Source: Desulfocarbo indianensis (GTDB lineage Bacteria; Desulfobacterota; Desulfarculia; Desulfarculales; Desulfarculaceae). Taken from it: a stretch of 64,000 nucleotides of DNA. Below the pieces are notes generated by a model. It was given only the letters and a program-made list of their open reading frames with translations, ran no database searches and was not told the DNA's origin. Below, piece after piece: positions 24,644 through 31,852 of this stretch (position 1 is its first letter; every line of letters begins with the position of its first letter). The position numbers and the translations under genes were made by a program. The stretch spans positions 1,330,001 through 1,394,000 of the forward strand of contig LBMP01000001.1 in NCBI GenBank assembly GCA_001184205.1, in the 5' to 3' direction.

Positions 24644-26086
24644 ATGGCGCTTACCGTGTACAACTCCAAGACCCGCGCAAAGGAAGAGCTGCGAACCCTG
24701 GAACCGGGCAAGGTTCGCATGTACGTGTGCGGGGTGACGGTTTACGACGACCCCCACGTGGGCCACGCCCGCTGCTACGTGGCCTTCGACGCCATCGTGC
24801 GCCACCTCAAGGCCAGGGGCTACGAGGTCACCTACGCCCGCAACTTCACCGACGTGGACGACAAGATCATAAAGCGGGCCGCCGAGACCGGCGTCTCCTG
24901 CGAGGAGCTGGCCGGCCGCTACATGGAGTCCTTCAGCCAGGACATGTCCGCCTTGGGGGTGCTGCCCGCCGATCTGGAGCCCCGCGCCACCCAGCACATC
25001 CCCGAGATAATCGAGACCGTGCAAAAGCTGATCGAAAAGGGCCACGCCTACGAGGTGGACGGCGACGTGTATTTCGCGGTGCGCAGCTTCCCCCGCTACG
25101 GCCAGCTATCGGGCCGCGACGTGGACGACATGCGCTCCGGGGCCCGGGTGCAGGTGGACGAGCGCAAGAACGACCCCCTGGATTTCGCCTTGTGGAAGTC
25201 CTCCAAGCCGGGCGAGCCCAGTTGGGAGAGCCCCTGGGGGCCGGGCCGGCCGGGCTGGCACATAGAGTGCTCGGTGATGAGCACCAAGTACCTGGGGGCC
25301 GGTTTCGACATCCACGGCGGCGGCAAGGACCTCATCTTCCCCCATCATGAAAACGAGGTGGCCCAGGCCGAGGCGGCCACGGACCAGCCCTTTGCCAGCT
25401 ATTGGATTCATAACGGCTTCGTGCGGGTGAACCAGGAGAAGATGTCCAAGTCCCTGGGCAACTTCTTCACCATCAAGGACATCTTGAAAAGCAACCGGCC
25501 CGAGGCCTTGCGCCTTTTTCTCTTGTCCAAGCACTACCGCTCGCCCCTGGATTTCTCCGACGCGGCCCTGGCGGAATCGGCCCAGGGCCTGGAACGCCTC
25601 TACACCGCGCTCTTGAGCGCCGATGAGGGGGCGGCCGGGGCCGAGCCGCTTCCGCCCCAAGACGATCCCCGCCTGGCCGAGTTGCAAGAAAACGCGCAGC
25701 GCTTCGAGGACGGCATGGACGACGACTTCAACACCGCCGCCGCCACCGGGGCGCTGTTCGGCCTGGCCCGCGCGGTTAACCGCCTGGCCGGCGAGGAAAA
25801 GACGCCGGCCCGCGACGCGCTTTTGGCTTACGCCGCCCGGCTGATGCGCCAATTGGGCGGCCGCCTGGGATTGCTGAACCAGGACCCGCAGGAATTCATG
25901 CGGGCCGCGGCCAGCCCCATGGCCGCCGGCCCGGACCCCGCGCGGATAGAGGAACTGGTCAACCAGCGCAACGCGGCGCGCAAGGCCAAGGATTTCGCCA
26001 AGGCTGATCAGATCCGCGACGAGCTGGCCGCCCAGGGCGTCATCCTGGAGGACACCCCCCAGGGCACCCGCTGGAAGCTGCAATGA
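24644..26086 (+). CDS. cysS: Cysteine--tRNA ligase
   Basis: A 480-residue class I synthetase. The zinc and HIGH regions read [20 protein letters not shown], and [10 protein letters not shown] is the KMSKS loop. WHIECSVM and [15 protein letters not shown], both with zinc ligands, are present. Length and C-terminal helical anticodon region are normal. GGGAG precedes the ATG. Its stop overlaps the next gene (ATGA). Confidence 0.97.
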
Positions 26087-26679
26087 ATATATTGCTAGTC
26101 TTGGGCCATCCCAGCGGGGATAGCTTTTGCGCGGCCATAGCCCAAAGCGCCAGGACGGCGCTGGAGGAGCTGGGCCATGAGGTGATATTCCACGACCTCT
26201 ACCGCGAGGGGTTCGATCCCCTCATCAGCGCCCGGGAGATACCCCAGGACGCCCCGCTGGACCCGGTGGCGGCCCGCCATTGCCGGGAGCTGGCCCAGGC
26301 CGAGGGAATCGTGGTGGTGCATCCCAACTATTGGGGACAGCCGCCGGCCATGTTGAAGGGCTGGATCGACCGGGTATTCCGCCCCGGCGTGGCCTACCGG
26401 TTTCTGGAGGGCGACGGCGGCGAGGGCGTGCCCGAGGGCCTGCTCAAGGCGCGCCTGGCCGTGGTGCTCAACACCTCCAACACCTTCGAGGATAGGGAAA
26501 TGGCGGTCTTCGGCGATCCCCTGGAAAACATCTGGCGCAAATGCCTGTTCCAGTTCTGCGGGGTGCCGGATTTTTACCGCCATACTTTCCGGGTGATCGT
26601 GACCAGCAGCCTGGAGCAGCGCCGGCAATGGCTGGAAGAAGCGGCCCAGACCCTGCGGCGCTTGTTCCCCCGCGCCTAG
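26083..26679 (+). CDS. NAD(P)H-dependent oxidoreductase, flavodoxin-like (quinone reductase/KefF type)
   Basis: 198 residues. [19 protein letters not shown] is the FMN phosphate-binding start of the family; HDLYREGFDPLIS, VVVHPNYWGQPPAMLKGWIDRVFRPGVAY and the C-terminal FRVIVTSS are characteristic. Relatives are NQO-type quinone reductases that transfer two electrons from NAD(P)H via FMN or FAD, and regulators of potassium efflux. It is coupled to cysS by an ATGA overlap, although the functions are unrelated. Confidence 0.87.
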   Translation: MNILLVLGHPSGDSFCAAIAQSARTALEELGHEVIFHDLYREGFDPLISAREIPQDAPLDPVAARHCRELAQAEGIVVVHPNYWGQPPAMLKGWIDRVFRPGVAYRFLEGDGGEGVPEGLLKARLAVVLNTSNTFEDREMAVFGDPLENIWRKCLFQFCGVPDFYRHTFRVIVTSSLEQRRQWLEEAAQTLRRLFPRA

Positions 26680-26922: not shown

Positions 26923-28281
26923 ATGACCGTACTAACAAACTACTATATCTTCGCGCTGCTGTTCACCGTCGCCTACGTCATCGTATTCTGGCGGTTTCTG
27001 CGGCGCTTTGACGAAGGCGATCCCAAGATAGGGCCTTTCAAAAGAGTGCTTTTGGGGGTCACCGGCTGGGCCTTGTTCGACTTCCTGCTGGCGAGCATAT
27101 TCCAGTATCACGGCGCGCGGGCCGCCGTGGCGGCCTTCCCCTGGCTGTGCATTCTTTTTCTTTTATTCCCGCCCGCCGCCTTCGAGCTGATCCTGGCCTT
27201 GCTGGGCCACGCCGGCAAACGGGAGAAGCTGTTGGTTTACGGGCCCTACGCCCTTCTATACGCGGCCGCCTTGCTCTTTCCCGGCCAGGTCGGCGGCGGC
27301 ACCTACAGCATCCCCAATCCAGGGCCCGACCACGGCGAGCTTTGGAATCAGGCTTTCCGCGGGATCACTTTCTGCGCGGCGATCGTTCTTTTCCCCTGGC
27401 TTTTAATCGGTGCGCTTCGGCAGCAAGATAAAGAGCGCCGCAATGAAATGCTGATCCTTTTCACCGGCGGCGCTTTGACCGGCCTGGGCAACGTGGCCGC
27501 CCGCCTTCTCATGGACCTCCGGGGGCCCGGCTTTCCTTTCACGGGCAGCCTGTGGATGGTTTTCACCTGCCTGGCCGCCTTTTGGGGCGCGCGGCTGTAT
27601 GGCCGGGTTCTTTCGCCGCGCATCTTGTACAAGGCCATTCTCAAGTCATCGCCCAACGGCATGATGCGTATCGGCCAAGGGAATATTTTGTGGACCAACG
27701 AAGCCATGGCCAAGATACTGGGAGCCGAGGGCGAGGAAAATCCGCCCGGCAGGTCCTTGCCGGAGCTGTTCGACCCAAGGGCGCACCCGGAAGCCGAGCG
27801 GGAGGAGATAGCCAGGCTGGTGGCCGAGGGCCTGGCCGCCAACCTGGAGGTGGCGCTGGCCCGCGGCTCCGGCGAGCCCCTGTGGTGCCTGGTCAGTTCC
27901 GCCCTCCTGGAGCCCCACGCGCCCAGGCATGGGGCGCTGGCGGTTTTCGCGGATATCTCCGCCCGCAAGCGCGAAGAGGAGCAGAGGCTGGTGAGCGAGA
28001 AGCTGAAGGCGGCCATGGAAACCGCGGGCGCGGTGTGCCATGAAATGAATCAGCCCTTGCAGGTGCTCTCCGCCCGTTTGGAGCTGATGCTGCTGCATGG
28101 CGGGGACCAGGAATCCTTGGGGAAAGAACTGGAGGAACTGCGGCGCCAGGTGGCGCGCCTGGGCGAGATCACCAGACGCCTGATCGCGCTCACCCATTAC
28201 CGCACCAAGGCCTACAGCGAGGACCGGGAAATACTGGATTTGGAGCGCTCCGCCCCGGACGAGCCGCAGAGTTTTTCCTAG
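26923..28281 (+). CDS. 7-TM PAS-HisKA protein lacking the HATPase domain
   Basis: 452 residues from ATG 26923; the frame extends to 26812 but without other start support, and the ribosome-like GGGAG abuts this ATG. Seven hydrophobic segments occupy about residues 5-235. A PAS domain follows (AILKSSPNGMMRIGQGNILWTNEAMAKILG) and then a HisKA dimerisation helix with AVCHEMNQPLQVL, His373. The protein then ends about 80 residues later with no N, G1 or G2 boxes, so it cannot bind ATP as a normal kinase. It may be phosphorylated in trans, act as a sensory adaptor, or be a remnant. No regulator gene is adjacent. Confidence 0.82.
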   Translation: MTVLTNYYIFALLFTVAYVIVFWRFLRRFDEGDPKIGPFKRVLLGVTGWALFDFLLASIFQYHGARAAVAAFPWLCILFLLFPPAAFELILALLGHAGKREKLLVYGPYALLYAAALLFPGQVGGGTYSIPNPGPDHGELWNQAFRGITFCAAIVLFPWLLIGALRQQDKERRNEMLILFTGGALTGLGNVAARLLMDLRGPGFPFTGSLWMVFTCLAAFWGARLYGRVLSPRILYKAILKSSPNGMMRIGQGNILWTNEAMAKILGAEGEENPPGRSLPELFDPRAHPEAEREEIARLVAEGLAANLEVALARGSGEPLWCLVSSALLEPHAPRHGALAVFADISARKREEEQRLVSEKLKAAMETAGAVCHEMNQPLQVLSARLELMLLHGGDQESLGKELEELRRQVARLGEITRRLIALTHYRTKAYSEDREILDLERSAPDEPQSFS

Positions 28282-28477: not shown

Positions 28478-30517
28478 ATGGCCTACGAGAGCGAACCCAC
28501 CTTCACCTATTGGCGCACCTCGCCCAGCCCGGCCGAGTTCGAGCTGGTCAGCGAGTTCTCGCCCCAGGGTGATCAGCCCCGCGCCATCCAGGAATTGGCC
28601 CAGGGCCTGAGCGCCGGGGTGAAGCACCAGGTGCTTCTGGGCGTCACCGGCAGCGGCAAGACCTTCACCATGGCCAACGTCATCGCCGCGGCCAAGAAGC
28701 CGGCCCTGGTGCTGGCCCCCAACAAGACCCTGGCCGCCCAGCTTTACGGCGAGTTCAAGTCCCTGTTCCCCCACAACGCGGTGGAGTATTTCGTATCGTA
28801 CTATGATTACTACCAGCCCGAGGCCTATATCCCGGCCAGCGACACCTTCATCGAGAAGGACAGCTCCATAAACGAGCAGATCGACAAGATGCGCCACGCG
28901 GCCACCTTCGCCCTCCTGACCCGGCGCGACGTGGTGATCGTGGCCTCGGTGTCCTGCATCTACGGCCTGGGCTCGCCCGAGGTTTACCGCGACCAGATCC
29001 TCTATCTTCAGCGGGGGGACGAGCCGGGCCGCGAGGCGGTCCTGCGCAAGCTGGTGGACATCCTCTACGAGCGCAACGAGTATGATTTCCACCGCGGCAC
29101 CTTCCGGGTGCGCGGCGACACGGTGGAGGTGTTCCCGGCCTATGAGGAGGACCGGGCGGTGCGCATCAGCTTTTTCGGCGACGAGGTGGAGGACATCGCC
29201 TTCATAGACCCCCTGCGCGGCCAGGTGCTGGCCCGCGAGCCCCGGGTGACCATTTTCCCGGCCAGCCACTACGTGACCACCGAGGAAATCCGCACGGAAG
29301 CCACCGCGGCCATCAGGAGCGAGCTGGCCGAACGCATGAAGTATTTCGAGGACAACCGCCAGTTGATAGAGGCTCAGCGCATCAGGGAGCGCACCCTGTT
29401 CGACCTGGAGATGATGAAGGAACTGGGCTGGTGCCACGGCATAGAGAACTACTCGCGCCATCTCACCGGCCGCGCCCCCGGTGAGGCGCCGCCCACCCTG
29501 CTGGATTATTTCCCCAGGGAATGGCTGCTCGTGGTGGATGAAAGCCACATCACCGTGCCCCAGGTGGGCGGCATGTACCGGGGGGACCGTTCGCGCAAGA
29601 CCACCCTGGTGGAATTTGGTTTCCGCCTGCCCAGCGCCCTGGACAACCGCCCCCTGAACTTCGAGGAGTTCGAAGAGCATCTGGATCAGGTGGTCTACGT
29701 CTCGGCCACGCCGGGGGATTACGAGCTCAAGCAGGCCGGCGGCGTGGTGGTGGAACAGATCATCCGCCCCACCGGGCTCATGGACCCCCAGATCGAGGTG
29801 CGGCCGGCCAGCGGCCAGGTGGACGATCTTCTGGGCGAGCTGCGCAAGGTGGTGAAGCGCAAGGAGCGCGCCCTGGTGACCACCCTGACCAAGCGCATGG
29901 CCGAGGAGCTGAGCGAGTATCTGGGCGAGCAGGGGCTGAAGGTGAAATACCTGCACAGCGACATCAAGACCATAGAGCGGGTGCAGATTCTGCAAGATTT
30001 GCGGCGCGGGGTGTTCGACGTGCTGGTGGGCATCAACCTCTTGCGCGAGGGCCTGGACCTGCCCGAGGTGAGCCTGGTGGCCATCCTGGACGCGGACCGC
30101 GAGGGATTCCTGCGCTCCACCCGCAGCCTGATCCAGACCACCGGCCGCGCCGCCCGCAACCTGGGGGGCCGGGTGGTGCTCTACGCCGATCACGTTACCG
30201 ATTCCATGGCCAGGGCCATAGAAGAAACCGAGCGCCGGCGGACCGTGCAGGAGGAATTCAACGCGGTCCACGGCATCACCCCCAAGAGCATCAAGAAGAA
30301 GATCAGCGCCATGCTGCCCCACGAGCTGGAGGCGGATTACTCCACCGTGCCGCTGCAAGCCGAGGAGCCCGAGCTGGCCCCGGAGGAAATTCCCCGCCTG
30401 GTGGTCCAGCTCCGGAAAAAGATGGTTGCCGCGGCCGACGACCTGCGCTTCGAGGAGGCGGCTCTCATCCGCGACCGCATCAAGGATCTGGAGGCCGAGG
30501 AGCTGAAGTGGCGCTGA
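28478..30517 (+). CDS. uvrB: Excinuclease ABC subunit B
   Basis: A 679-residue helicase-like DNA-damage verification subunit of nucleotide excision repair. Walker [15 protein letters not shown], the beta-hairpin region [16 protein letters not shown] box [11 protein letters not shown], motif [26 protein letters not shown] and QTTGRAARN, and a C-terminal UVR domain ([21 protein letters not shown]) for UvrC contact are all present. No SOS-type operator was recognised upstream. Confidence 0.97.
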
Positions 30518-30724: not shown

Positions 30725-31852
30725 ATGGCCCAGGACGTGTATCTGAAGCTGCGCCGTCATCTGGACAATCTGCCCGGCGGCTATCCCGCCACCGACAGCG
30801 GCGTGGAACTGCGCATTTTGCGCCGGCTCTTTTCCCCGGAGGAGGCCGGGCTGGCCATCAAGCTCACCCTCATCCCGGAGGCCGGCCCGGTGGTGGCCCG
30901 CCGCGCCAGGCTGCCCCTGGCCGAGGCCACGCGCCGCCTGGATGAGATGGCGCGCAAGGGCCTGGTGTTCCGCTATGAATACAAGGGCGAGGTCTATTAC
31001 ATGGCCGCCCAGTACGTCATCGGCATCTGGGAATACCATGTCAACGACCTGGACCCCGAGCTCATCCGGGACATGAACGAGTACATCCCCCATCTCTTCA
31101 CGCCCGAGGCGTGGAAGAAGGCTCCCCAGCTCCGCACCATCCCGGTGGGGCGCAGCATCACTCCGGAGCACGAGGTGATGCCCTACGAAATGGCCGAGGA
31201 GCTGGTGCGCGGGCAGAAGAAAATCCTGGTGGCGCCCTGCATCTGCCGCCGCGAGCACGAGATGGTGGGCGAGGGCTGCGACAAGCCCAAGGAGACCTGC
31301 CTGGTGTTCGGGGCGGGCGTGGATTATTACCAGGCCAACGGCCTGGGCCGCCGCATAGACGCCGACGAGGCCCTGGCCATCCTCAAGCAGGCCGATAAGA
31401 AGGGCCTGGTGCTGCAACCCACCAACGCCAAGAAGATAATGAACATCTGCTGCTGCTGCGGCTGCTGCTGCCAGGTGCTCAAGACCTTCAAGCGCCACCC
31501 CAAGCCGGCCCAGATGGTCTCCAGCCCCTTCATAGCGGCGGCCGATCCGGCCTCCTGCAAGGGCTGCGGGGTGTGCGTCGATCGCTGCCAAATGGAGGCG
31601 CTAAGCCTGGACGGGGATAAGAAGGTGGTGCTGGATTTGGACCGCTGCATTGGCTGCGGCCTGTGCGTCTCCACCTGTCCCACCAAGTCCCTGACCCTTG
31701 CGCGCAAGCCGGAGAACGAGCAGCCCAGGGTTCCCAAAAACAACCTGGAGGCGCTCATGAACACCGCCCGGGCCAGGGGCAAGCTGAGCCCGGCCAGGCT
31801 TGCCGTGATGAGCCTCAAATCCAAGATGGACCGGCTTTTGGCCAGCCGCTAA
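30725..31852 (+). CDS. 4Fe-4S binding protein with a cysteine-cluster motif
   Basis: A 375-residue soluble protein. The N-terminal 100 residues look like a winged-helix segment (LAEATRRLDEMARKGLVFRYE). The middle has APCICRREHEMVGEGCDKPKETCL and then NICCCCGCCCQVL, with seven cysteines in eight positions. Two ferredoxin clusters follow: CKGCGVCVDRCQMEAL and CIGCGLCVSTCPTKSL. Proteins of this layout are frequent in sulfate-reducing deltaproteobacteria, but I know of no assigned reaction. It is a single gene bounded by a strong terminator. Confidence 0.8.
   Translation: MAQDVYLKLRRHLDNLPGGYPATDSGVELRILRRLFSPEEAGLAIKLTLIPEAGPVVARRARLPLAEATRRLDEMARKGLVFRYEYKGEVYYMAAQYVIGIWEYHVNDLDPELIRDMNEYIPHLFTPEAWKKAPQLRTIPVGRSITPEHEVMPYEMAEELVRGQKKILVAPCICRREHEMVGEGCDKPKETCLVFGAGVDYYQANGLGRRIDADEALAILKQADKKGLVLQPTNAKKIMNICCCCGCCCQVLKTFKRHPKPAQMVSSPFIAAADPASCKGCGVCVDRCQMEALSLDGDKKVVLDLDRCIGCGLCVSTCPTKSLTLARKPENEQPRVPKNNLEALMNTARARGKLSPARLAVMSLKSKMDRLLASR

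Follow-up and report, generated by a model that had tools for sequence, protein, structure and literature searches.

The gene studied here occupies positions 26923..28281 (+) of the window, by which we mean the whole 64,000-nucleotide stretch of DNA analysed. It encodes a 452-aa protein in which a membrane region is followed by a PAS domain, a DHp (HisKA) domain and a conserved C-terminal tail, with no HATPase domain. The ORF ends with a stop codon at 28279..28281 (+), which is also the conserved end point of the family described below. The longest form, starting at an upstream in-frame ATG (26812), would have 489 aa, and 26923 is the likelier start because homology to relatives begins at about residue 40 of that form. 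The PAS domain (27625..27960 (+), residues 272-383 of the 489-aa form) scored above the Pfam cut-offs of PAS_9, PAS_4, PAS and PAS_8 and was modelled by AlphaFold with a pLDDT mostly above 90. The DHp helical hairpin follows at 27994..28194 (+). Its HisKA match (residues 405-461 of the longer form, E 9.2e-6) reached 26.1 bits, slightly below the Pfam cut-off of 26.9, and 29.9 bits, above the cut-off, in a whole-genome Pfam search. The phospho-accepting histidine claimed in an earlier reading made from the letters alone (hereafter the sequence-only reading) was confirmed as His373 of the 452-aa form, encoded at 28039..28041 (+) within the H-box AGAVCHEMNQPLQVL. The family signature tail, YRTKAYSEDREILDLERSA, lies at 28198..28254 (+) and includes a predicted beta-hairpin at about 28204-28236. 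No HATPase was detected in the protein by Pfam at E ≤ 1, as that reading had also claimed, and because the ATPase domain is missing, the protein is unable to phosphorylate itself alone. An ordinary kinase with a diverged HATPase was rejected, with no match at E ≤ 1 and too few residues left, and so was an HPt domain (PF01627), with no Pfam match at E ≤ 1.

The N-terminal membrane input region (26923..27627 (+)) is probably of the seven-transmembrane (7-TM), HisKA_7TM-like type, as suggested by its homology to larger proteins from genomes of the same family and class (L032-L043). The 7-TM label of the sequence-only reading found indirect backing here: homologue L032 aligned with the window N-terminus at 154 bits (phmmer) and itself matched HisKA_7TM (PF16927) at E 5.4e-5, under the cut-off of that family. 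In the window protein itself, Pfam matched nothing in this region at E ≤ 1, PF16927 included, and a Kyte-Doolittle scan returned only four strong hydrophobic windows. AlphaFold placed helices in this region with low confidence (low pLDDT). The output parts differ among the N-terminal homologues. Since a homologous N-terminus heads a HisKA_2-HATPase protein (L032) and a GGDEF protein (L041) in Pfam, the input part is a shuffled sensor, probably 7-TM, that is attached here to a different output.

The gene has no adjoining signalling genes. Upstream lies a Flavodoxin_2 family gene (26083..26679 (+), Pfam), itself preceded by cysS, and downstream is uvrB (28478..30517 (+), Pfam), which excludes a continuing HATPase. 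The 196 bases between the stop codon and uvrB, read by eye in all forward frames, hold no HATPase, in line with the earlier statement that no nearby frame continues into this domain. Within the 64-kb window, HATPase matches (E ≤ 0.01) were found near 11.0 and 48.7 kb, both in other ORFs. Further downstream, positions 30725-31852 encode a 375-aa protein with C-terminal 4Fe-4S dicluster domains preceded by a striking run, CCCCGCCC.

Among the matches listed for 60 related genomes are many ORFs that align with the last ~105 residues of the protein up to the ORF ends, with about 30-47% identity. An alignment and HMM (A1) made from 17 relatives and the window sequence covers the last ~100 residues in 102 model positions. 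The window protein scored 131.1 bits against A1, with 5 residues after the match, and 120.3 bits against A3, its own sequence being a seed row of A1 and also a row of A3. Scanning named genomes with the fixed pattern AG..HE..Q and keeping the best 80 of 545 loci recovered mostly Desulfobacterota, along with two Calditrichota, two Spirochaetaceae and one Fibrobacteres record. As this pattern makes His and Glu invariant by construction in the 80 loci, residue counts were drawn from a second set of 130 loci, 20 obtained by a single-protein search and the others by an HMM search, which takes in most of the strong matches listed. This set gave 122 distinct modules above 60 bits, 18 of them A1 seed rows.

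The sequence-only reading had proposed looking for homologues that end at the same point, and these are the rule. A stop codon follows the match within 21 residues in 79 of the 80 named homologues (best 80 of 545) and follows the module within 30 residues in 116 of the 122 distinct modules, where 0-26 residues remain. With so widely shared an end point, we are dealing with a family and not with a fragment. The exception among the named homologues, L098, continues for 119 residues after the match, and this extension is presumably the single PilZ match among 81 scanned members. None of the six longer modules runs straight from the family DHp into an ATPase domain, and over all loci in hand, repeats included, 223 of the 236 matches above 50 bits are ORFs that have the tail and stop within 30 residues. 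Because the 60-bit cut favours modules with a tail, our claim is limited to these: no ATPase domain follows a module that has the tail. HATPase was not among the 25 families listed, of 26, in a Pfam scan of 81 members. The family combines a DHp carrying an invariant His with the lack of an ATP-binding domain. Neither of the outcomes that would have contradicted the sequence-only reading was seen, as no frameshift restores an HATPase and the homologues do not all carry one. Below 60 bits, L252 (43.8 bits) has a stop inside the module, and the other matches are the L063 kinase or separate ORFs within the loci used. At the same place as L252, L319 has a stop codon ~60 residues into the module, which reflects either the decay of a member or an error in the sequence. 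There are also short DHp proteins with no tail (L315, L316). Hence, not every HATPase-less DHp belongs to the tail-bearing family, and single members can decay.

The module ends with the signature Y.T..Y.....IIDI..S. Across the 122 modules, the phospho-acceptor His is invariant (122/122) and the Pro at H+5 nearly so (121/122), while H+4 is Gln in 108, Thr in 7 and Asn in 4, the window protein reading H-E-M-N-Q. Glu occupies H+1 in 110 modules; the acid is lost in the other 12 and the His never. In the tail, the second Tyr is kept in 116 modules, the Ile in 117, the Asp in 114 and the first Tyr in 101, with Phe replacing it in 13. With the His exchanged in silico, the modules lost an average of 3.3 bits in HMM score and all 122 stayed above the 60-bit cut, so members without His would not have been missed on that account. 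The genome carrying the window has three ORFs matching the family HMM at 131, 116 and 102 bits, after which scores drop to 46. The tail starts at model position 80, and of the 43 weaker matches in this genome, whose ends fall between positions 71 and 88 of the 102, 38 do not reach it. By sequence, the signature is absent from the other HisKA matches of this genome. One of its paralogues, L062 (C268:246291), has a DUF484/GAF-like input and reads CHNLAQPL, with Asn replacing the Glu after the His; the autokinase acid is gone and the His retained. Members of ~405 aa that end in IVDIWG form another set of observations (L097, L101, L104, L111, L118, L124, L142, L158). A same-strand gene of 1.3-1.5 kb follows the members L097, L111, L118, L124 and L142, and in the two cases scanned (L097 and L118) it encodes a serine dehydratase alpha-chain protein.

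An AlphaFold2 monomer of the module (mean pLDDT 85) was predicted as two long helices followed by a beta-hairpin, which spans the tail, and then by a short helix; the strands lie at module positions 81-85 and 88-91 (block pLDDT 83-90). In a fold search of the module against the PDB, kinase DHp domains (CpxA) ranked first, but their E exceeded 1 and their VIA-align Z of ~8 falls where helical hairpins are said to score commonly, and we gave this match no weight. No structure carrying the tail was found in this search. FixL-containing chains were among the best PDB profile matches to the family, the match ending at position 77, before the tail, and the NCBIfam FixL model matched 56 of 80 modules at E ≤ 0.001, in the DHp part only. 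The HisKA H-box of FixL/DctB-type kinases, H-E-[LIM]-N-Q-P, shares the Gln at H+4 with the window family. FixL and DctB differ from the family in carrying an ATPase domain.

We compared the family with ordinary kinases in trees of 77 DHp columns, tail excluded, using every second or third member. The 64 members and 33 kinases of the genome carrying the window were split on one branch with support of 99/96, and 49 members were split from 47 kinases of the loci in hand with support of 99/99; both trees are unrooted, and their supports come from bootstraps that had not settled, with long-branch warnings. Midpoint rooting of the 64 versus 33 tree places the kinases inside the family side. The trees are compatible with one origin and make repeated recent truncation unlikely, and either side of these unrooted trees could be the derived one. 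Residues also separate the two groups: H+4 is Gln in the family versus Asn or Thr in ordinary kinases, Glu is conserved in the family at H-7 and H-14, and the helix 2 end conserved in kinases (L.FS) is not kept.

The module was detected by HMM (E ≤ 1e-16) in 80 of 297 sampled Desulfobacterota genomes, representing 56 of 199 genera, with up to five modules per genome when at most 16 candidates were scored. The Calditrichota and Spirochaetaceae loci come from four genomes, in which the module scored 117-143 bits, and the other listed matches, where there were any, 51 bits or less. The inputs are diverse. Among 81 members, Pfam identified PAS_9 in 48, REC in 25, GAF_2 in 12 and HAMP in 2, as well as single cases of Cache and CHASE5. 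No REC was detected in 56 of the 81 members. In a regular-expression scan of 189 members, the receiver Asp was present in 28 of the 29 REC-like ones.

Several fusions place the module within longer chains. L278 and L295 are REC-HisKA-REC-GGDEF proteins (Pfam), with the DHp between two receivers. By eye, four of the six longer modules (L278, L288, L295, L298) have a second receiver after the module, that of L278 lacking the Asp, and L298 also has a GGDEF domain. Four further ORFs (L312, L313, L317, L318) have a receiver-like continuation by eye, with a degraded tail in L312 and L313. Such DHp-then-receiver chains, which are REC-DHp-REC wherever the whole chain was read, occur in several Desulfobacterota families and have the appearance of a whole phosphorelay with a diguanylate cyclase output and no ATPase domain. 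A different arrangement is found in L273, which is PAS-module-HisKA-HATPase in Pfam, and in L285, similar by eye, in which a second HisKA precedes the HATPase. In these tandem DHp kinases, the HATPase-less module retains the tail and has Thr at H+4.

The gene neighbourhoods were analysed for 72 of the 80 named loci, as greedy longest-ORF gene calling missed the family gene in 8, which were dropped. Response_reg was found in 14 of 138 adjacent genes versus 2 of 88 control genes located five places away (Fisher p 0.019, with repeated loci all counted). HATPase_c was found in 13 of the 138 versus at most 1 of the 88 (Fisher p 0.008); it was absent among the 25 families listed, of 113, for the control genes, and its control count was set to the possible maximum of 1. 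The HATPase_c excess falls to p 0.075 once a repeated Desulfosarcina locus, whose six upstream proteins share 73-84% identity with the one in L089, is counted singly. Either domain was present in at most 27 of the 138 adjacent genes, and the neighbourhoods of most members are uninformative. Seventeen hand-picked neighbours were scanned one by one. Five are kinases, each with its own DHp: L105, L106 and L160 have hybrid kinases directly upstream, with two receivers each in L105 (which also has an Hpt) and L106 and one in L160, while the neighbour is a PAS-GAF kinase in L108 and a HisKA_2 kinase in L089. The kinase and family genes of L105 overlap by 20 bases. The neighbour of L127 is a REC-SpoIIE-HATPase_c_2-STAS protein and the gene upstream of L113 is CheC/CheX-like; the others comprise nine unrelated proteins and one with no match. 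In the Desulfosarcina pair (L089 4443-6045), a HisKA_2 kinase gene of ~310 aa is followed after 1 base by a 233-aa REC-DHp gene, and the upstream kinase gene is orthologous in L091, L094, L095, L096 and L131. This pair is a candidate two-gene relay. No specific operon partner was found outside the Desulfosarcina group.

HisKA proteins with no HATPase are in print as a class (Galperin 2005, 2018; Amin 2013). One census counted 1556 of them among 42417 HisKA proteins in SMART (PMC3591291), an Archaeoglobus group (AF_1472) has been noted (PMC1183210, PMC5847659), and P2CS files HisKA proteins with neither HATPase nor receiver as phosphotransfer proteins (PMC2716373). The later of the two papers on the Archaeoglobus group describes the class as having no experimentally studied member (PMC5847659). 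Like the window family, the AF_1472 group and the censused proteins have a sensor or REC with HisKA and no HATPase (PMC5847659, PMC1183210, PMC3591291), but the accessible text of these censuses counts a class and describes no family with a shared C-terminal tail. We found neither a description of the family or its tail nor biochemistry on it in the open-access literature searched.

We propose, with a probability of about one half, that the protein is a sensor-coupled DHp phosphotransferase resembling Spo0B, ChpT and PhyT. For the mechanism as a whole, including the dimer, the direction of transfer, the partners and the gating by signal, we infer the following. The membrane/PAS part would sense a signal and control a dimeric HisKA helical bundle, which the short conserved beta-hairpin would cap at the place where a kinase has its ATPase domain. 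The conserved His would receive phosphate from the phosphorylated receiver of a hybrid kinase or REC protein, and not from ATP bound within the protein, and it could pass this phosphate to another receiver or drain phosphate backwards, as in Spo0B, ChpT and PhyT. The signal would set whether the relay is open. Spo0B and ChpT keep a degenerate ATPase-like domain. No residual domain of this kind is present in the window family, given the 0-26 residues that follow 116 of the 122 modules, and varied sensor inputs are fused to its DHp, unlike in Spo0B, ChpT and PhyT. PhyT likewise keeps a degenerate ATPase-like domain (PMC5898713), where the window family has instead the short predicted beta-hairpin tail. 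What these proteins share with the proposed role is that they are kinase-derived His phosphotransferases acting between receivers (PMC5898713, PMC3433190).

Phosphotransfer is favoured because the His is kept in all 122 modules while the H+1 acid, which is required for HisKA autophosphorylation (PMC3510030), is lost in 12, and because the DHp of the GGDEF fusions is flanked by a receiver on either side. The REC in 25 of 81 members, with some REC-DHp genes adjoining kinase genes, the adjacent Response_reg genes (14/138 versus 2/88) with the hybrid kinases upstream in L105, L106 and L160, and the precedents of kinase-derived phosphotransferases (PMC5898713) all argue in the same direction. It is weakened by the retention of the H+1 acid in 110 of 122 modules, which fits the ATPase domain of a partner equally well, by the 56 of 81 members with no detected REC and the lack of a signalling neighbour for the window gene, and by the HATPase_c excess at p 0.075 and the second receiver of L278 with no Asp. 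The fold comparison gave weak DHp matches, and to our knowledge nothing like the tail is known from Spo0B or ChpT, which also counts against it. Of the three options offered by the sequence-only reading, the lost catalytic domain is contradicted by the family, and the other two, phosphorylation by another kinase and an adaptor role, stand as rivals. The main rival is phosphorylation in trans. Here the protein would supply the His of a split or heterodimeric kinase; the catalytic domain of a second kinase would phosphorylate that His with ATP, and the protein would then phosphorylate a response regulator. The retained H+1 acid, the tandem arrangements of L273 (Pfam) and L285 (by eye) and the kinases flanking some members speak for it, and split kinases do function in vitro and in Rhodobacter (PMC3591291). 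In the known pairs CheA3/CheA4 and Hik36/Hik43, the His carrier and the catalytic domain are on separate proteins, as this reading supposes, but these pairs use HPt/P1 domains as carriers and their catalytic partner is known, whereas the carrier here is a DHp. The genome carrying the window also encodes HATPases with no HisKA. Since each of the five flanking kinases has its own DHp, none is a free ATPase half, and with the L.FS end of helix 2 not kept and 12 of 122 members having no H+1 acid, we judge this explanation unlikely.

DHp domains dock receivers, and a signal-gated phosphatase or sequestering adaptor, whose DHp would bind a response regulator and remove or block its phosphate, could be imagined on that ground and from the CheC/CheX-like gene upstream of L113. 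The seven Thr and four Asn found at H+4 among the 122 modules could suit a phosphatase, and FixL-type kinases also have Gln there. Such a role appears more improbable still, as Thr or Asn at H+4 is required for HisKA phosphatase activity (PMC3510030) and the H-E/D-x-x-T/N motif is absent from the window protein, which has Gln at this position like 108 of the 122 modules. The same Asn-to-Gln change in CrdS (N375Q) left no measurable phosphatase activity, and the His, invariant here, is dispensable for the phosphatase activity of EnvZ, though not of PleC (PMC3510030). It is very hard to sustain that the gene is what is left of a histidine kinase, through decay or truncation, or that it results from an assembly error. 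A HisKA match slightly under the Pfam cut-off and the in-module stop of L252/L319 would agree with decay, and against it are an end point conserved across many genomes, the conserved tail, the invariant His, the one-branch split from kinases and the absence of any HATPase remnant downstream of the window gene. Truncation, frameshift and assembly error were rejected on the shared end point and the lack of a downstream HATPase.

Extending the phosphotransferase reading to the whole family, we put forward as a tentative and rather doubtful generalization that its members may be single-origin 'phosphate-routing receptors', in which membrane, PAS, GAF or receiver inputs sit on a DHp whose ATPase domain has been permanently replaced by a beta-hairpin cap. 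Their inputs would gate a relay, and several such receptors per genome would tap the phosphate of a few hybrid kinases. The censuses (Galperin 2005, P2CS) treat HisKA proteins with no HATPase as incomplete kinases or truncations. With one signature and their separation from kinases, many of these supposedly 'broken' genes become a component that can be tested, and structural studies could make use of the family's small, naturally DHp-only module. If the proposal is true, these receptors would act on the flow of phosphate rather than on its generation, the cell sensing by opening or closing a phosphorelay rather than by starting a kinase, and signalling in sulfate reducers and related bacteria would have to be mapped differently.
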